Origin: an uncultured Prevotellaceae bacterium
Lineage (GTDB): Bacteria; Bacteroidota; Bacteroidia; Bacteroidales; Bacteroidaceae
Length of the DNA stretch: 64,000 nt
Assembly (NCBI GenBank): GCA_900319385.1
Contig: ONOG01000002.1
Span: 1-64,000 of the forward strand
Direction of reading: 5' to 3'
Under the pieces are notes generated by a model that worked only from the letters and a program-made list of their open reading frames with translations, was not told the origin of the DNA and made no database searches. Below are positions 52,847-61,292 of the stretch, piece after piece; the first letter of the stretch is position 1; every line of letters starts with the position of its first letter. Made by a program: the position numbers and the translations under genes.

Positions 52847-53002
52847 AGCCTCCCCCCACCCTCCCTCCGAAGAAGGGGGAGAACGGAGCACATATAGCAT
52901 CGCCCTGCAACGTGGAATCGCTTGAAGCGAAAGCATGTTGCAGGGCGTTGCTTCTTTTACTACCGTTCTTCCCCTCCTTCGGAGGGGGGCGGGGGGAGGC
53001 TT
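52847..53002. terminator. Nested inverted repeats between convergent genes
   Basis: Outer arms AAGCCTCCCCCCACCCTCCC (from 52847) and GCGGGGGGAGGCTT (to 53002) belong to the CCTCCCCC family. Inside, CGCCCTGCAACGT (52901) pairs with ATGTTGCAGGGCG (ending about 52946), with a small CGCTT-GAA-GCG stem in the loop. It fills the gap between the convergent cyclophilin and Omp28 genes and can stop both. Confidence 0.8.
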
Positions 53003-53003
53003 T

Positions 53004-56000
53004 TTACTTCACCAGCACCTTCACCACCTTCTGCGTTCCGTCGGCGAAGGTGATGCGGCGAACGAGGGTGCCACGCTGAGCGTTCGACACCTTGCGGCCG
53101 GCCACGTCGAAGGACTCAACCTTGCTGACCAGACGCTCGCTGTCGCTATCAACACCGACGATGGCGTCATATACGCCCACGTCAACCTTGTTGGCATTGA
53201 CGATTTCGCCAGTCGTGACGTCGATGAGCAGGGCAACGACGCGCAGCTGGTTCTTGTCCTGGATGATTTCCTCGCCGTTCAGGTTGACAGCGTCGGCCAG
53301 GTTGATCGTGAAGTTGTGTTCAGCCGACTCGCCGGCAGACATCATTTCGGGCAGGATATCGCCGATGCCGCCGATGCCGGAGTTGTAAACAGCTACGTCG
53401 TTGAAGACGAGGCCAGTCACCGTGCTACCGGCATTGACAAACTCGCTGAGGTTCTCATCCCAGGCAAAGGCAGAGCTGTTCGAGAAGTAGTTCGACTGTG
53501 CCCAGTCCTTGGTCGTACCGGTGAGGCCGTCGGCGACGAGCACATACTCGATGGCATAGTTCGAGCCAGCCAAATCGGTGGGAGTGGTCACCTGTGTGGT
53601 CACGTCGATGGCTGTGCCGTCGGCGTTCCATGTAGCGGCTACTTCGACATCGACCACGCCAAATTCAGCGCAGCGCTCATCGAGCACGTTGACAATGCCG
53701 AGCGGTTCGTCTTCAGTCAGACCGTTGTAGGGGTCAACCTCCATGACGCGGTCAACAAAGGACGTGGGGAATCCCTGAACGTCGGAAGGATAGGGGACGT
53801 CTTCGCCATCCATGATGGCCATGGGGTCTCCGTTGTGGTAGCTGATGAGCACGTAGTCGTCGGGGAAGAGTTCGGCGAGCTTCTCCAGGGCAACGAAGCC
53901 ACGGGGGCACCATCCGCACCAGGTGCCGGTGTACTCCTCGAGCACGGCACGGTGGGTGGGCACCGAAGTCAGGGCTACGACTTCCTGTATGGCCATGGCA
54001 TCGGGCGTTTCGTTGGCCTCGCCGTTGACCTTCGTCACGGTGACGGTGTAGTTGTATTCGCCCGTTTCTCCGATGGCAGGCACTTCGACGCTGATTTCGG
54101 CCTCTGCACCATAGACAGGAGCGATGGGCTCTTCGAGGCTGAGTGTGTAGGTCTCCTCGACAGCCAGGGTGTTGTTCTTCACAACGACTTCGACGCTCTC
54201 GACACCCATTGCGCCGAGGTTCTGCACATTCAGGTTGAGGGTGAAGGGCTCGTCGTACTTGACATAGGCGGTCTTGCCCGTGATGGGCGAAGCAGCGTAA
54301 GAGAGCACTTCGCTACCCTTGACATCCACCTGGATGATTGCCGATGCGTTGAACGTCGATGAAACGTCGAACCACTTGAGCAGGGTCTTGGATGTGTGCA
54401 GATAGAAGCTACCCTCTTGGCCGCCGTCAATCACAGCGATGGGGAACTCAGCCTCTTCGCTGGAAAGATTGTCGATGCTGAAGCTGTAACCTACGTAAAC
54501 GCCTTCGCTGGGGATGAGGTAGGGCTTCGGCAGTTCGACCGTGACAAAGTCGGCCTCGGTGGGCGCGATGTCAACCTTCACGAGGTCGGGCGCAGCCTTT
54601 CCGTCTTCGACACGCAGCTGACTGCTGAGCCATACGGAGATGTTGCTGCTGTTCTCAACCTCCATGATAGGCACGGTGATCTTCGTCACGTAGCAGCCGA
54701 TGAGGTCGTCCTCGTTGAGGTGGATGGCTACGTCGTAGTTCTGGGCCTTTGCCTCACCGAACATGCCGACGTCCTCAGCGCCGGTGTAGAAGCCCCAGGT
54801 GATTTCGTTGTCCTCGGCATCCGGAGCCGAATCGGGATAATCGGGTGTGGCAGCCTCGGGTTGAAGCTCAGAGCCTTCGCCGGCCATTTCCACCCAGGTG
54901 ATTTCGCTGCGACGCTCCTCGCCGCCACCCGTGTAGATGGCCTGCAGACCGTAAGCCTCGGCACCGATGGTGTAGTAGTAGAACTCGTGGTTCGAGCCTG
55001 TGGCGTAGAAGTCCCAGTTTTCGCTATATCCGTAAGGAATGGACTCGCTTTCTGCCCAGTCGAGTTTATAGTAGTCGGCTTTGCTGAACGTGAGAGGCAC
55101 TTCCTCGCCGTTGACACGGGCAAAGAGAGCGTACGACAGTTTGTCGCCGAGGATGAAGTTGCCGTCCTCGTCCAACGTGTTGAGGTTGAAGTCGATGTAG
55201 CCAAAACCATAGCCCTGGCCATAGTAGCTCAGGTCGTACTCCTCGTTGTTGTTAATGACGGGGGCAGCCGGTGTGGCAGCTACCTCGGTGAACTTCTTGA
55301 TGAGGGCGTTTGTGTAGAAGGCGGCATAGTTCACCTCGTCCGTACCGGCATTCACGAGGAAGGTGCCGGTCGATGTGCCGGTGAGGGTGGAGAGGTCGAA
55401 TGTGAACTCGATGTCGCTGTCGAGCAGTGTGTACTCGGTGTAGGTTTCGCCGTAGTCGGGGTCGGTGACTTCTTCGCCCTGAGCCGACACGAGATACTGG
55501 TAGTAGCCCGTTGTTTCGTCAGCACCCAGGAAGGTGCCGTTGGGGATGGTGGCCGTCATCGTCATGGGATTGACGGAACCCTTCACCCATGCTTCGGGCA
55601 AAGCAGGATATATACCCTGAACATAGATGTCGGTGCCGCTCACGCCGACTTTCACCAGCGTGCCGTCGAAACCTTCGGCCGTGAGGGCGCACTCAATGGT
55701 GGTCATGTCGTCGGGAGCCACAACGGGTTCGGCATCCAGTACGTCCAGGTTGATGTTCCAGTCGGCATAGCCAGCCCAGATGCCATCGGCGTCAACGATA
55801 CCAATCATCAGATCGCCGCTCTTGAACTCAGAGTCAGCGGGCGTGGTGATGGCACGCGTTGCAGCGTCGTAGTTCAGCGTGAGTGTGGTCACATCGGTGG
55901 CAGATACCACGTTGCCTTCCTCGTCGGTGCGGCAGAGTGCGAACCTGTACACTTCGCCCTCGCTTTCCATGGCATCCTGCGGGAAGTCGAACGTGATTTT

Positions 56001-56477
56001 GTCGCCGTCGAGCGTACCTTCGATCCATGTGTCTGTCATCAACTGACTGATGACGTTTCGCAGATAGACCTTGTTGTCCGAGCCAAAGACGACGTTGCCG
56101 ACACCGCCCTGAACCGATGTCGTGAAGACATAGCCCCAGAAGGGATAGGCGGCCTCGCAGCTGCGGACATACCACACCTGCTCGCCGGCGGGCTGCTCAG
56201 TGATGGCAGCCTTGCGCGCTGTCTTCGTGAACTTGCGCAGTGTCTTGAGCTTCGACGCATTGACGTCTTTCTTCAGACGGAACGCAGCCGTAGCCGCAGC
56301 CTTGCGCGTGGTCGATGTCTGCTGCTGCAGGTCAGCCTTCGAGGGTGCCTGCTTCGCAGCCTGAGTGGCAATGGGCGACAGACGGTTCAGGCGGGCTTGC
56401 GACAGCTTGGGTGTCTGTGCCATTGCGGTGGCATACACTAAGAGCGTAGCCACGAAGAAAAGGAGATTTTTCTTCAT
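53004..56477 (-). CDS. Giant Omp28-like secreted protein with CGWC thiol motif
   Basis: The 1,157-residue product has a signal peptide (to about residue 20, AMAQ). Residues 35-95 are Lys/Ala-rich. Residues 95-750 are beta-rich, with no family I can name (GYGFGYIDFNLNTLDEDGNF, FYTGAEDVGMFGEAKAQNYDVAIHLNEDD). Residues 755-840 look like a CARDB/Ig-type domain. An Omp28-type thioredoxin-like domain follows near 840-1080 with YTGTWCGWCPRG (about 850-857) and GFPTSFVDR. The last 50 residues resemble a C-terminal sorting domain (FDVAGRKV ... VVKVLVK). It is the last gene of the five-gene operon. I use the ATG at 56477 over a TTG two codons earlier. Confidence 0.85.
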   Translation of the reverse strand: MKKNLLFFVATLLVYATAMAQTPKLSQARLNRLSPIATQAAKQAPSKADLQQQTSTTRKAAATAAFRLKKDVNASKLKTLRKFTKTARKAAITEQPAGEQVWYVRSCEAAYPFWGYVFTTSVQGGVGNVVFGSDNKVYLRNVISQLMTDTWIEGTLDGDKITFDFPQDAMESEGEVYRFALCRTDEEGNVVSATDVTTLTLNYDAATRAITTPADSEFKSGDLMIGIVDADGIWAGYADWNINLDVLDAEPVVAPDDMTTIECALTAEGFDGTLVKVGVSGTDIYVQGIYPALPEAWVKGSVNPMTMTATIPNGTFLGADETTGYYQYLVSAQGEEVTDPDYGETYTEYTLLDSDIEFTFDLSTLTGTSTGTFLVNAGTDEVNYAAFYTNALIKKFTEVAATPAAPVINNNEEYDLSYYGQGYGFGYIDFNLNTLDEDGNFILGDKLSYALFARVNGEEVPLTFSKADYYKLDWAESESIPYGYSENWDFYATGSNHEFYYYTIGAEAYGLQAIYTGGGEERRSEITWVEMAGEGSELQPEAATPDYPDSAPDAEDNEITWGFYTGAEDVGMFGEAKAQNYDVAIHLNEDDLIGCYVTKITVPIMEVENSSNISVWLSSQLRVEDGKAAPDLVKVDIAPTEADFVTVELPKPYLIPSEGVYVGYSFSIDNLSSEEAEFPIAVIDGGQEGSFYLHTSKTLLKWFDVSSTFNASAIIQVDVKGSEVLSYAASPITGKTAYVKYDEPFTLNLNVQNLGAMGVESVEVVVKNNTLAVEETYTLSLEEPIAPVYGAEAEISVEVPAIGETGEYNYTVTVTKVNGEANETPDAMAIQEVVALTSVPTHRAVLEEYTGTWCGWCPRGFVALEKLAELFPDDYVLISYHNGDPMAIMDGEDVPYPSDVQGFPTSFVDRVMEVDPYNGLTEDEPLGIVNVLDERCAEFGVVDVEVAATWNADGTAIDVTTQVTTPTDLAGSNYAIEYVLVADGLTGTTKDWAQSNYFSNSSAFAWDENLSEFVNAGSTVTGLVFNDVAVYNSGIGGIGDILPEMMSAGESAEHNFTINLADAVNLNGEEIIQDKNQLRVVALLIDVTTGEIVNANKVDVGVYDAIVGVDSDSERLVSKVESFDVAGRKVSNAQRGTLVRRITFADGTQKVVKVLVK

Positions 56478-56526
56478 AAGCAAAAAAAGAGTTATAAATA
56501 AAAAAAATAAGAATTAAGAATGAACT

Positions 56527-56569
56527 GACCTCACCCCAATCCTCTCTTGGGGAGGAAAGAGGTGGGGTC
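56527..56569. terminator. CCTCCCC-family hairpin after the 219-residue gene
   Basis: ACCTCACCCC and GGTGGGGTC with CCTCTCTTGGGGAGG inside form a hairpin 6 bases after the stop of the upstream gene on the minus strand, so it may partly stop transcription before the giant Omp28 gene. Confidence 0.55.
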
Positions 56570-56574
56570 TGTGT

Positions 56575-57234
56575 TTACTTTGTGGCCTTGTAGAGTTTCT
56601 TTGTCGTGCGGACAGCACCGTTGCGGAAGTGTTCCTGCACTACATACGTGCCATTGACGGGGCGCGTCACCTTACGGCCATCCATACCATAGTAGTTGGT
56701 CGATTGCGGCTGAGTGTTGGAGCGCAGGTGGTCGATGGCCGATGCCTCGGTGGAGAAGTTGAGCGTCACCTTCGGGCCACGACCCTTCAGCGTGTACTTC
56801 TTCGTGATGCTGTTGTACTTGTAAATGAGGAACTGCATCTCGACTACAGCCGTTCCTCCTGCTTCGGGCAGCCATTCGGTCTGCATGCTCTTGAGCACGC
56901 CGGCGGGGATGGCTCCCATGTTCGACTGGTAGGTGCCAGTTGCCGTCTGTGCCACGCAGTTTTCGGGGAAGCAGGTCTGGAACGAACCGTTCTCAAGCGT
57001 GACAATGGTGTATTCGGTAGCAGCCATGACTTCGCCCGAAGTGGTGTTCTTGACAAAGAGGCCCGAAGGCATGATGCCACCGCCCCATCCGTCGTCCTCG
57101 AGCGTGGTGCAGTTGATGACTGTGCCGTCGGCAATGATGTTGCCTTCGGCATCGGCAAACTGTAACTCGTCCTGTGCAAAGGTCTGTGTGCTTGCCAGAG
57201 CGAGCAGAGTGATCAGAGTAAAGAATTTCTTCAT
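56575..57234 (-). CDS. Secreted protein of unknown function in the Omp28 operon
   Basis: The 219-residue product has a signal peptide (MKKFFTLITLLALASTQTFA). The mature part is beta-rich, with two Cys close together (CFPENC at about 91-96). Its end (NYYGMDGRKVTRPVNGTYVVQEHFRNGAVRTTKKLYK) is a C-terminal sorting-like domain common in Prevotella secreted proteins. I recognise no family for the rest. It uses the ATG at 57234 rather than a TTG two codons upstream. It lies 35 bases after the Omp28 lipoprotein gene. Confidence 0.8.
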   Translation of the reverse strand: MKKFFTLITLLALASTQTFAQDELQFADAEGNIIADGTVINCTTLEDDGWGGGIMPSGLFVKNTTSGEVMAATEYTIVTLENGSFQTCFPENCVAQTATGTYQSNMGAIPAGVLKSMQTEWLPEAGGTAVVEMQFLIYKYNSITKKYTLKGRGPKVTLNFSTEASAIDHLRSNTQPQSTNYYGMDGRKVTRPVNGTYVVQEHFRNGAVRTTKKLYKATK

Positions 57235-57269
57235 ACGCAAATAGACTTTATAAAGTTAAACATTAAAGA

Positions 57270-58058
57270 TTAAAACTTGGCGGTTACGACCTGCTCCACG
57301 CCGGCGTCGGTATAGACGAAAGCGACGATGCTCATGTTCTCAGGCTTCCATGCAGGGTCGAGGGTTGTGCTGACGTCTTCGTCCCATGCCTCACCTACGT
57401 TGACACTGAAGTCGTCGCCGTAGAGGTCGGACGTGAGGGAAGTACGGAACACATGGTTGTGCACATAGTCGGTCTTGCGGCTGCCGTCGGGCATCGACTG
57501 CGCATCGACGATTCCGCTTTCGGTGAGCCATACTTGATAGCGGCCTGCGCGCGATTCGGTCGAACTGGCGTGAAGCGACACGGTCAGTTTGCGGCTCTCG
57601 GCGTCGTAGTTGGGCGTCAGGCTGAGCGTGAGGGGCGTAGCTTTCTGCAGCTCTGCGGCAATGGCTGTGGCATATTCGCTGGTCGATTCGAGCAGTGAAC
57701 CACTGCGATTGACTTGGGCACTGGGCTGTGCCATCACGCCCCAGTGGCTGTAATAGTCGTCGCCTGCCTCGGTGCAGAGGCTCAGCCGCGGGCTGGTCAT
57801 GGTGGAGCGATGGCCGAAAGGACCGCTGTGGATGGCGACCACCACGACGTGGTCCTCGCCGTACGTTTCCTGCAACCGAGCCAGTTCGTCGGCTGCTGTG
57901 GGGCAGTTGACGCAACGCTGTCCGGTGAAGTCCTCAATAAGCACGTTGCGTGCCACGCTGATTTCGACCTTCTCGAAACGTTCGTCCATGCTCTTTTCGT
58001 CGCAGGCCGTCAGCAGCACCAAGGCTAAAGCTACACTGATTGACAATATCTTGTTCAT
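57270..58058 (-). CDS. Omp28-family lipoprotein with CVNC motif
   Basis: The 262-residue product has a lipobox LTAC (Cys19). Residues 38-130 form a thioredoxin-like part with the Omp28 motif VLIEDFTGQRCVNCPTA, giving Cys49 and Cys52 in CxxC. The later beta-rich domain includes NHVFRTSLTSDLYGDDFSVNVGEAW. Omp28 proteins are outer-membrane lipoproteins of unproven function. The CxxC suggests thiol-disulfide exchange or metal binding. It sits between the DUF6029 barrel and the 219-residue gene. Confidence 0.9.
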   Translation of the reverse strand: MNKILSISVALALVLLTACDEKSMDERFEKVEISVARNVLIEDFTGQRCVNCPTAADELARLQETYGEDHVVVVAIHSGPFGHRSTMTSPRLSLCTEAGDDYYSHWGVMAQPSAQVNRSGSLLESTSEYATAIAAELQKATPLTLSLTPNYDAESRKLTVSLHASSTESRAGRYQVWLTESGIVDAQSMPDGSRKTDYVHNHVFRTSLTSDLYGDDFSVNVGEAWDEDVSTTLDPAWKPENMSIVAFVYTDAGVEQVVTAKF

Positions 58059-58079
58059 ACGCTAATTATTAAAGGTGTT

Positions 58080-58112
58080 CCCTATCCCCCTCGTTGAGAG
58101 GGGACTGGGGAA
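58080..58112. repeat. CCCCCTC-family hairpin in the operon
   Basis: CCTATCCCCCTC pairs with GAGAGGGGACTGG around GTT. It is in the 60-base gap between the barrel and Omp28 genes, so it may set their expression ratio. Confidence 0.6.
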
Positions 58113-58118
58113 AGGCTC

Positions 58119-59783
58119 TCAAAAGTTGTAATTGTACGAAAGGGTGACGCCCTTGCTGGCAGGCACGTAGCGGCAAACGCCACCGGTGCAGTTGTATCCG
58201 GCGCGGGTGCGACCGTAGCCCAGCTGCAGGCGGTGTGTGCCTGCGGTGAAGGTGACGCTGCCCTGATAGTAATGGGTCTTCGTCTCGCCACAGTTCCACT
58301 GGTCGCTCAAGGTGAACATCCAGTGGGGCAGCATCGACAGCTCGGCCAGCGCAAACGCCCAGTCGCCCTGGTCGCCAGCGGTGGTGAGGTACTGCAGTTC
58401 GCCGCGCAGGGTGAACTTCTTGTTGAAGCGGTATTTGCCTTCGGCAACGAAGATGTTGCTGTGAATCAGTCCGCCATGCCCTTCCATGATGGTTTGGTTG
58501 TAGAACTGGTTCATATACATCAAATTCAGCTTGAATGCGCTCGACAGTTTCTTCTCCACCTGGATGTTCAAGTCCTGATAATAGACATCGCTGCCCCATT
58601 TCCAGAAGGCTGACTTGTTTCCGTCGCTGCCTTCGGCTGCAGGTTTGCGCGAGTTCTCGAGCGAATGGATGTGGGAGAAATTCAGTTTCACGTTCGTGCC
58701 ATACTTTCCACCCAGCGCTGTGCCACGCTTGAAGTCGTAGCCCAGTTCTGCCTGGTAGGCCCACTCACCGTCGAGCTGTGTGCCGTAGGTGTAGAGGGCA
58801 GCGAGGGTGTAAGTGTGGTCGAGGGTGAAGGGTGGCAGGTAGTTGATGTGCGAAGCCAGCGGAAGTGTTTCGCGGCGTCGGCTGCGGAAATCCATGTTTT
58901 CGCTGCGCTTGGCCTGCACCAGTGCGCTCATGCCGCGCTTCGAATACGATGCCGAGAGCAGGGCTGCCGTTCCGCGCTGGAAGGTATAACCGTTCACCTG
59001 CGACGGATCCTGCGACTTCTGTGCATATTCTGCCAGCACGTTCCAGTTACCCTTTTGCAGTCGGGCACGCAGGTCGAAGGCATTCACGTTCTGCGGCTGG
59101 TGCAGCTGATAGGTGCCGCCGTCGTGCGGAACGAGGAGTTCGTCTTCCTTCTCATGCTTGTTGACGAACGAGGCACCGAGGGTCAGGAAAGTGCCGCTCT
59201 GCTGCATGGCTTTCGACCATTGGTCGATGCTCAGTTCGAGGTCGGCACCGCTCACCCACGCATTGTTTCTATCCCAGTAGCGACGTTGCTTACCGCTGAG
59301 CAGCTTAATCTGCACACCCTCGACAGGTCGTAGCACCAGTCGTCCGCCCAGCAGCGAGTTGTCGATGCCAAGGGAACGCTCTTCGTAGGTGCGCAGGATG
59401 AGGCCCGAGCCGAACTGCTCGTAGTAGTGGCCCAGGGTGAGCTCCTGTCCGGCAAGTTTTCCTTTTATATAAAAATATGGTACACCCCAACCCTTGAAGT
59501 CGGGATTCTGCTCTGCAAATCCAGGCATGGGGAAGCGCATGAACTCCAGGCGCACACCGGCATCGACGTACTGGCTCATGGCGCTCACCTCGGCATAGCT
59601 GTTGGTCAGCGCCCATTCGTCGTACTTCTCGGCACCAATCTTCGTATCCTCCTGCGGCAGGAGGATGTCGCTCTGGATGCTACCCGTGATGGTCACATCG
59701 CCCACTTGCACCTGTGCCGTGGCTGTGGTCCAGAAGCAAGTCAGCAGGACTGCTGCACTGATATATCTTAACAATCGTGTCAT
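58119..59783 (-). CDS. DUF6029-type outer-membrane beta-barrel protein
   Basis: The 554-residue product has a signal peptide (TATAQ, about residue 24) and alternating beta strands through to a C-terminal aromatic residue (LSYNYNF), as in outer-membrane barrels. GSIQSDILLPQEDTKIGAE at the start and LGHYYEQFGSGLILRTYEERSLGIDNSLLGGR near 130-160 are family landmarks I recall. Near the C-terminus it has Cys in QWNCGET and a CTGGVC loop (CX4C). Its ATG overlaps the TlpA stop (ATGA). Solute or partner is unknown. Confidence 0.85.
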   Translation of the reverse strand: MTRLLRYISAAVLLTCFWTTATAQVQVGDVTITGSIQSDILLPQEDTKIGAEKYDEWALTNSYAEVSAMSQYVDAGVRLEFMRFPMPGFAEQNPDFKGWGVPYFYIKGKLAGQELTLGHYYEQFGSGLILRTYEERSLGIDNSLLGGRLVLRPVEGVQIKLLSGKQRRYWDRNNAWVSGADLELSIDQWSKAMQQSGTFLTLGASFVNKHEKEDELLVPHDGGTYQLHQPQNVNAFDLRARLQKGNWNVLAEYAQKSQDPSQVNGYTFQRGTAALLSASYSKRGMSALVQAKRSENMDFRSRRRETLPLASHINYLPPFTLDHTYTLAALYTYGTQLDGEWAYQAELGYDFKRGTALGGKYGTNVKLNFSHIHSLENSRKPAAEGSDGNKSAFWKWGSDVYYQDLNIQVEKKLSSAFKLNLMYMNQFYNQTIMEGHGGLIHSNIFVAEGKYRFNKKFTLRGELQYLTTAGDQGDWAFALAELSMLPHWMFTLSDQWNCGETKTHYYQGSVTFTAGTHRLQLGYGRTRAGYNCTGGVCRYVPASKGVTLSYNYNF

Positions 59784-60274
59784 TTTCCAACAAGTTCACG
59801 CACTTTTTCAATCAACTCCTCTTCGGCACCGTCGGCATAGCCGTTGTGACGATAGACGATTTTGCCCTGTCCATCGACGATGAGCGTATAAGGGATGGTC
59901 TGTATGCCCAGTGCGCGACGCAAATCGCTGTTGGGGTCGAGCAGAACGTCGTATTCCCAACCGTAGCTATCGACCATCGGCTTCACCTTGTTAATGTTCT
60001 GTGCCTCGTCAATGCTCACTGCGATGAGTTTCACTCCCGTCTCCTCCTGCCATTCGGGATAGACTTCGTGAATGGCCTTCAGCTCACGGTTGCAGGGTTT
60101 GCACCATGTGGCGAAAAAGTCGATGATGAAGGGCTTGCCGTCGTTCGACAGCGTGTCGGTGCGCACCTCCTTGCCTTCGAGGCTGCGCAGTGTGACGTTG
60201 GGCAACTGAGCCTTTGCTGTGCTGGCGAGTGCGAGCAGCAGCGTCAGACAGAGAAGTAGTTTTTTTGTGTTCAT
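59780..60274 (-). CDS. TlpA-type thiol:disulfide oxidoreductase
   Basis: The 164-residue product has a signal peptide (to about residue 22) and a thioredoxin domain with WCKPC (Cys58, Cys61) in DFFATWCKPC and cis-Pro in IQTIPYTLIV. It should work in the periplasm as a reductase or disulfide exchanger. It is the first gene of the operon with DUF6029, Omp28 and other secreted proteins, with a good promoter and an ATGA overlap to the next gene. Confidence 0.93.
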   Translation of the reverse strand: MNTKKLLLCLTLLLALASTAKAQLPNVTLRSLEGKEVRTDTLSNDGKPFIIDFFATWCKPCNRELKAIHEVYPEWQEETGVKLIAVSIDEAQNINKVKPMVDSYGWEYDVLLDPNSDLRRALGIQTIPYTLIVDGQGKIVYRHNGYADGAEEELIEKVRELVGK

Positions 60275-60302: not shown

Positions 60303-60334
60303 CAAAGTTACAACTTTTCCACCGCTTTTTCAAA
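60303..60334 (-). promoter_or_regulatory. Predicted promoter of the TlpA/Omp28 operon
   Basis: On the minus strand TTTG (60331-60334) is followed after 20 bases by TAACTTTG (60303-60310), a full match to the Bacteroidota consensus. The ATG is 29 bases further. Confidence 0.75.
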
Positions 60335-60491: not shown

Positions 60492-61292
60492 TTATTGTTT
60501 TCTGAGTTCTGAAGGGGTGAATCCGAGTGTGCGGCTGACGAACCGCGTGAAATAGGAGAGGGACGAGAAACCGAAGCGGTCCGCAATCTCTGTGGGGGTG
60601 AGCGACTTTTCGCGCAGCAGGCGTGAGATTTCGAGCGAGGTAAATCGCTGTATCCAGTAGTTGGCAGAATGACCGCTCACGAGGTTTGTCACCTCTGACA
60701 GGTATTTGGGTGTGATGCACAGGCGGCTGGCATAGTACGCAACGTTACGTTCGGTGCGGTAGATGCCCGATTCGAGCAGAGCGATAAATTGGTTCATCAG
60801 TTCTCCAGCCCTTTCTGGAATGGGACTTTCGCTGCCCAGTCGCCGGTGAAACTCGAAGAAGTCGATATACATCACTTGCAGCACGTGGGTGATACTGTCG
60901 ATGAAAAAGTGCTTGTCGGGATCGCGTAGTCGCAACTCCAGTTGGTCGATGTCGATATTGAGCAGGCGGTGTTCGTCCCACAGCAGCGGCATGACGGGAT
61001 TGTGGTAGAGGGCGATGCTCCCTTTGATTTGGTAGTTGTTCGTCGGACGTGTGGCTTCGAGGAAGGTGGGGGACACATAGACGACGCGCACGACAAAGTC
61101 GGTCGATGGTCGCAGCTGGCTCACCAGCCGGTTGGCTATGATGACCATGCTGTCGCCGGCACGGAGTGTGAACGGACGTTCGTCGAACAGGAAGTCGCAT
61201 TGCCCCCCGTTGCATACGACGTGCGAGAAGTAAGTGGCCAGTTCTTCGCTGCACAATCGGTCCAGCGTGTTTTCTATGATGACGTCTTGCAT
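60492..61292 (-). CDS. AraC family transcription regulator
   Basis: The 266-residue product has an N-terminal cupin-like sensor part (about 20-100, LFDERPFTLRAGDSMVII) and a C-terminal AraC-type double helix-turn-helix at about 165-266 (YYASRLCITPKYLSEVTNLVSG, SLTPTEIADRFGFSSLSYFTRFVSRTLGFTPSELR). It is divergent from the small membrane protein, aldo/keto reductase and flavodoxin genes, which are its likely targets. The inducer is unknown. Confidence 0.93.
   Translation of the reverse strand: MQDVIIENTLDRLCSEELATYFSHVVCNGGQCDFLFDERPFTLRAGDSMVIIANRLVSQLRPSTDFVVRVVYVSPTFLEATRPTNNYQIKGSIALYHNPVMPLLWDEHRLLNIDIDQLELRLRDPDKHFFIDSITHVLQVMYIDFFEFHRRLGSESPIPERAGELMNQFIALLESGIYRTERNVAYYASRLCITPKYLSEVTNLVSGHSANYWIQRFTSLEISRLLREKSLTPTEIADRFGFSSLSYFTRFVSRTLGFTPSELRKQ

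Follow-up and report, generated by a model that had tools for sequence, protein, structure and literature searches.

DsbD supplies periplasmic thioredoxins with reducing equivalents, and we know of no thiol pathway of Gram-negative bacteria that continues beyond the periplasm. We analyzed a stretch of 64,000 nucleotides from an uncultured Prevotellaceae bacterium (assembly GCA_900319385.1, contig ONOG01000002.1, positions 1 to 64,000; hereafter, the window), in which five consecutive genes encode a TlpA-type thioredoxin, an outer-membrane barrel of the DUF6029 family, an Omp28 lipoprotein, a small PorA-like secreted protein (gene 4), and a giant thioredoxin-containing protein (gene 5) (Table 1). 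We favor, with moderate confidence, the reading that this operon encodes a reductive thiol-disulfide relay that is fed by DsbD and would link the periplasm with the cell surface. Its TlpA has the fold, the motif, and the compartment of the TlpA/ResA-type reductases that work with DsbD, and DsbD is present, sometimes in the same gene run. Those pathways end in the periplasm, whereas here the reductase is followed by a conserved barrel and by thioredoxins of the surface type. MtrCAB also joins a wide barrel to periplasmic and surface redox partners, but the analogy concerns the way of working: the chemistry of the operon would be thiol-disulfide, no sequence relation was found, and none of the five products carries a haem-binding CxxCH (their CxxC motifs read CKPCN, CVNCP, and CGWCP). 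In the pneumococcal Etrx1/Etrx2 system, too, lipoproteins of the thioredoxin family are exposed at the surface and have a redox partner; they act in resistance to extracellular oxidative stress (PMC3914529). However, it belongs to a Gram-positive bacterium with neither outer membrane nor barrel, and its partner MsrAB2 has no steady counterpart in the module.

Two proteins of P. gingivalis resemble the last two products of the operon. HBP35 (PGN_0659), which combines a thioredoxin domain, an immunoglobulin-like (Ig) domain, and a type IX secretion system (T9SS) tail, is the closest characterized relative of the giant protein. It reduces insulin via its CxxC and is exported by the T9SS (PMC2907840, PMC3120885); it also binds hemin, and the bacterium requires it when the medium is poor in hemin (PMC2907840). 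HBP35 is nevertheless much shorter (344 amino acids, versus 1157 in the giant protein) and has no known link to a DUF6029 barrel. PorA (PGN_0123), which is implicated in T9SS signaling (PMC7712824) and binds PorV-Sov (PMC8754138), is a small cargo with a FimH-like Ig domain and a C-terminal domain (CTD). The product of gene 4 may share this plan, and its cysteine pair aligns with that of PorA, although the spacing differs (CX3C in PorA, CX4C in gene 4) and the similarity is weak.

The barrel is a full-length member of its family (PF19494; E 1e-187, 625 bits against a cut-off of 27, model positions 8-538 of 538). The CX4C loop described in an earlier, sequence-only reading of this DNA is present as CTGGVC (C532 and C537), immediately ahead of the last strand. 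In 168 loci from across the phylum besides that of the window (80 + 88), both cysteines of the C-x-x-G-[VI]-C pair were always retained, even at family scores down to 20-50 bits. The alignment of the barrels has only seven fully invariant columns, two of which are C532 and C537. The AlphaFold2 model, built from 78 sequences (mean pLDDT 92.7, pTM 0.86), has 24 strands by count. In the model, turns after even-numbered strands are mostly short and loops after odd-numbered ones mostly long, so the loop that joins strands 23 and 24 is predicted to be extracellular, and under the usual topology the model places C532/C537 in this last extracellular loop. According to VIA, the barrel aligns over its whole length, with a similar strand topology, to two usher pores of 24 strands, FimD and PapC (Z 18.2, rmsd 4.4, 376 residues), these ushers being the best structural matches among the families on the VIA list, with AlgE as a further match; Foldseek returned only generic barrels, MtrB among them, with TM-scores of about 0.5 or lower. 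Ushers also have a plug and periplasmic domains; in the 554-residue model, no separate plug, N-domain, or C-domain is seen. The shared barrel size is no indication of function, but 24 strands imply a lumen through which a small folded domain might pass or in which it might be held. In the PDB, the DUF6029 profile matched only recA chains, which we took as artefacts.

The TlpA protein matches PF00578 (AhpC-TSA/Redoxin fold, E 5e-23) and falls below every named NCBIfam cut-off (86 bits versus 170 for ResA, 57 versus 123 for DsbE); judged by its sequence, it is a ResA/DsbE reductase of the general kind only. Its CxxC is kept in the 40 homologues adjoining DUF6029 (40/40). The Omp28 lipoprotein exceeds the curated NF033782 cut-off (248 bits versus 150), and both its CxxC and its lipobox cysteine were found in 34/34 homologues. 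Directly after the lipid cysteine comes an acidic stretch like a lipoprotein export signal (LES), which we take to resemble the export signals of Bacteroidetes lipoproteins.

No family could be assigned to gene 4, whose profile matches the N-domain of PorA weakly (6kjk, E 7.5e-4), with the cysteine pair aligned. This pair is kept in 53/53 homologues, and 9 of 40 homologues match TIGR04183. The profile of the giant protein has HBP35 as its top sequence match (5y1a, E 2.3e-7), and its model, largely of low confidence in the N-terminal part, shows a thioredoxin fold around CGWC with HBP35 as the top structural match (E 7.5e-12). The resemblance lies in the C-terminal half, which follows the plan of thioredoxin, Ig, and CTD-like domains, and 90 of 95 giant-like proteins keep the CxxC. 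Por_Secre_tail was not detected in either window protein, yet their tails align with the tail of 8bbl, and the window's genome encodes the SprA translocon (E 1.4e-219). The products of genes 4 and 5 are probably T9SS cargo, which the sequence-only reading had missed. Because of the LES-like lipoprotein signal and the CTD-like tails, the Omp28 lipoprotein and this cargo are expected at the cell surface. An initial contig scan with the giant protein as query gave no matches. DUF6029 scores over its cut-off in 82 of the 301 genomes of the window's family, and 64 of these 82, versus 6 of the other 219, have a match to the giant protein's thioredoxin part (raw counts, kinship ignored).

The module is widespread. 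DUF6029 was found in 112 of 198 Bacteroidales genomes and, over cut-off, in 67 of 247 genomes of a phylum sample. TlpA adjoins DUF6029 in 153 of the 168 loci (149 on the same strand and 4 divergent), and Omp28 or another thioredoxin lies downstream of the barrel in 140. The sequence-only reading had made its proposal depend on gene order and on the cysteine pairs: the order turned out to be phylum-wide rather than unique to one genome, and the pairs of the barrel, TlpA, Omp28, and the PorA-like protein are present in all the homologues counted above. It had also credited four of the five products with paired cysteines, when in fact all five have them (WCKPC, CTGGVC, CVNC, CFPENC, and CGWC). 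Msr was rejected as a constant partner, with Msr-like open reading frames (ORFs) near just 2 of 169 loci. The trio TlpA-DUF6029-Omp28 is intact in small genomes outside the window's class (L226-L231). In L226-L230 it faces a conserved 550-amino-acid protein with a barrel-like C-terminus (e.g., L226:7394-9049, minus strand).

The proteins downstream of the barrel can be replaced. Loci such as L206-L210 retain TlpA and the barrel, followed by genes for lipoprotein-type and secreted redoxins with CxxC; therefore, a different thioredoxin family occupies the same place and uses the same two delivery routes. In L209, for instance, a lipoprotein redoxin (CPHC) is followed by a T9SS-tailed redoxin (CPHC; PF18962, E 9e-11). 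Genomes without SprA (such as G059, G321, G344, G439, and G455) retain the core, and Omp28-like CxxC lipoproteins replace the CTD cargo. Loci of SprA-less genomes (L079, L082, L084, L085, and L086) carry one to three such lipoproteins downstream of DUF6029, including single proteins with two CxxC domains in L085 (718 amino acids) and L086 (689 amino acids). Since DUF6029 is present in these genomes, we rejected the idea that the module requires the T9SS; co-occurrence with SprA is uninformative across the order because 187 of 198 genomes have it. A full-length DsbD (DsbD_N, DsbD_TM, and C-terminal thioredoxin domain) comes immediately downstream of the module, in the same gene run, in two families, with the order TlpA-DUF6029-Omp28-DsbD in L235 and L236, and TlpA-DUF6029-Omp28-PorA-like-thioredoxin/CTD-DsbD in L237 and L238. 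In the window's genome, DsbD is encoded elsewhere, away from the operon. Because DsbD is near-universal (191/198 in the order), its presence is uninformative and only the linkage counts. As DsbD sits in the module's gene run in these four loci, the direction of the relay is likely to be reductive and outward.

At the level of genes, the evidence for the relay is strong, and its components, their cysteine pairs, the invariance of these pairs, the gene order, and the predicted fold are established as far as sequences go. In the proposed mechanism, inner-membrane DsbD would reduce periplasmic TlpA, which in turn would reduce the loop pair C532/C537 of the barrel, perhaps by entering the lumen or by meeting the loop. 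The loop pair would then reduce the CVNC of the surface lipoprotein Omp28, and Omp28 the surface-anchored T9SS thioredoxins, such as the giant HBP35-like protein, which could finally act on substrates, disulfides of surface proteins among them. The direction of the relay, the surface placement, and the transfer across the barrel are inferred, the last being the weak link. More tentatively still, DUF6029 may be the sheath of a thiol-disulfide conduit that crosses the outer membrane, the first of its kind known in bacteria, in which TlpA reduced by DsbD reaches into the 24-strand barrel and reduces the invariant C-x4-C of the surface loop, this loop reduces surface thioredoxins delivered as lipoproteins or by the T9SS, and extracellular disulfides are controlled with cytoplasmic reducing power.

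Several observations weigh against the relay. The barrel has one conserved cysteine pair and no chain of cysteines to explain how electrons would cross the membrane, and this pair could be a structural disulfide. The linkage to DsbD was seen in four genomes only, next to the near-universal presence of the protein. By the criterion used, TlpA is not adjacent in four near loci and nine distant ones that have room for it; of the loci scored in this way, two (L189 and L192) carry the genes as TlpA-Omp28-DUF6029, and the gene for the barrel is split in L183. For genes 4 and 5 of the window, the CTD tails fall under the Pfam cut-offs, and the papers found contain no biochemistry on DUF6029 or the Omp28 lipoprotein.

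The main rival is a role in folding, in which TlpA and Omp28 would reduce or isomerize disulfides in the barrel and in disulfide-bearing T9SS cargo, the barrel pair being structural or an assembly checkpoint, as in LptD with DsbC, and no relay would cross the membrane. The barrel and the PorA-like protein each bear one short-spaced invariant pair, apt for a loop disulfide; the genes of TlpA and the barrel share 4 bp, and the cargo thioredoxins come next in the operon. We consider this reading unlikely, though worth keeping in mind, since it explains the swaps of surface thioredoxins and the DsbD linkage less well than the relay: it leaves unexplained why a lipoprotein thioredoxin is retained in genomes lacking the T9SS, why its family is swapped while its place is kept, and why DsbD is linked to surface-type thioredoxins. 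The sequence-only reading had set a thiol or electron relay beside a maturation system for surface proteins. DsbD in the gene run, the swapped surface thioredoxins, and the exchange of lipoproteins for T9SS cargo argue for the former, and maturation would be a compatible purpose served by the same chemistry.

A surface nutrient system is improbable. Here the HBP35-like protein and Omp28 would capture haem or a metal, thioredoxin chemistry would keep it reduced, and DUF6029 would be the uptake pore. HBP35 does bind hemin, growth of its mutant is poor when hemin is absent (PMC2907840), and iron-linked roles have been proposed for T9SS thioredoxins of Muribaculaceae in a preprint (PMC13404670), but neither a TonB-dependent receptor nor a plug domain is seen in the core module, hemin is still bound by an HBP35 fragment that lacks the cysteine pair, and the core is retained in lineages without HBP35-like cargo. 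We give even less credit to a control of the T9SS, with the PorA-like protein reporting the surface redox state, set by the thioredoxins, to PorXY-SigP: PorA passes a surface signal to PorXY-SigP and belongs to the Sov-PorV complex (PMC7712824, PMC8754138), and its cysteine pair has kept its position in the operon's protein, but the match between the two is the weak one given above and the core occurs in SprA-less genomes. A pore for polysaccharide export or surface assembly, with thioredoxins as accessories, is the least probable, since the similarity of DUF6029 to Wzi-like barrels by HHpred (PMC9603273) and the structural match to AlgE contrast with constant neighbors that are thioredoxins and not polysaccharide genes.

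The five ORFs lie where the sequence-only reading had placed them, all on the minus strand (60274-53004), with spacings from TlpA to gene 5 of -4, 60, 29, and 91 bp. Genes 4 and 5 probably start at in-frame ATGs (57234 and 56477, respectively) and not at the TTGs. The claim of a single promoter holds: a Bacteroidetes-type match, TTG-N20-TAACTTTG, lies 29 bp upstream of the ATG of TlpA, and TAnnTTTG is absent from the minus strand within the operon. Just upstream, on the same strand, an AraC-type regulator (60492-61292) may or may not regulate the operon, whose promoter lies between them. Between genes there are GC-rich palindromic stretches (52848-53000, 58079-58118, and 56525-56572; e.g., CCCTCCTTCGGAGGGGG and GTCCCCTCTCAACGAGGGGGAT), which may be terminators or small repeats; the palindrome CCCTCCTTCGGAGGGGG has four imperfect copies in the window, versus 0.18 expected.

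Table 1. Positions of the operon's features in the window and, where a locus label is given, in other loci
Feature	Position	Strand	Remarks
Promoter, TTG-N20-TAnnTTTG	60303..60333	-	Bacteroidetes type, ahead of the operon; 0.24 matches per window expected by chance
TlpA-type periplasmic thioredoxin	59780..60274	-	164 amino acids; WCKPC; type I signal peptide (by eye)
DUF6029 outer-membrane barrel	58119..59783	-	554 amino acids; about 24 strands; C532-x4-C537
Codons of the invariant CTGGVCR motif	58170..58190	-	Barrel residues 532-538; both cysteines in 168/168 homologues
Omp28 lipoprotein	57270..58058	-	262 amino acids; lipobox LTAC-DEKSMDE; CVNC
PorA-like small secreted protein (gene 4)	56575..57240	-	Probable T9SS cargo; CFPENC
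Giant protein (gene 5)	53004..56483	-	1157-1159 amino acids; beta/Ig domains, thioredoxin domain (CGWC), Ig domain, CTD-like tail
DsbD genes downstream of the module	L235:3629-5737, L236:6608-8731, L237:4256-6226, L238:10737-12677		

Another described locus may include the module. In Paraprevotella clara, gene 00502 encodes a trypsin-recruiting Omp28-related CTD protein with Ig domains and stands at one end of an eight-gene locus, of which genes 00503-00508 are dispensable for trypsin degradation (PMC9477747). In three Paraprevotella loci, Omp28-related T9SS cargo stands beside TlpA-DUF6029-Omp28: an Omp28/Ig/CTD protein of 1258-1270 amino acids is divergent beside the module and is followed by two CTD proteins (L159:5543-9319, L163:5537-9349, and L170:5515-9312). 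Going by gene order, this protein is probably 00502, in which case the 00502-00509 locus surrounds the module. The giant protein of the window belongs to another subfamily and was not accepted as an orthologue of 00502, the domain plan being different in a comparison by description only. We also do not claim P. gingivalis PG0611-PG0616, where the known CTD proteins are 0611, 0614, and 0616, as the same locus.

The literature searched holds no description of the module or of such a relay, with limited coverage of subscription journals, so this absence is no proof. DUF6029 itself appears there in one paper, for its similarity to Wzi-like barrels (PMC9603273); T9SS and lipoprotein thioredoxins have been noted in Muribaculaceae on a high-fat diet in a preprint (PMC13404670). 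The conserved gene set suggests an undescribed route of reducing power to the cell surface. Bacteroidota surfaces bear many disulfide-bearing and redox-active proteins. If the relay is real, the module would explain how these surfaces stay reduced, what DUF6029 and the Omp28 lipoprotein do, and to which pathway HBP35-like and PorA-like cargo belong. It would then become possible to test how gut and oral Bacteroidota control the redox state of their surface.

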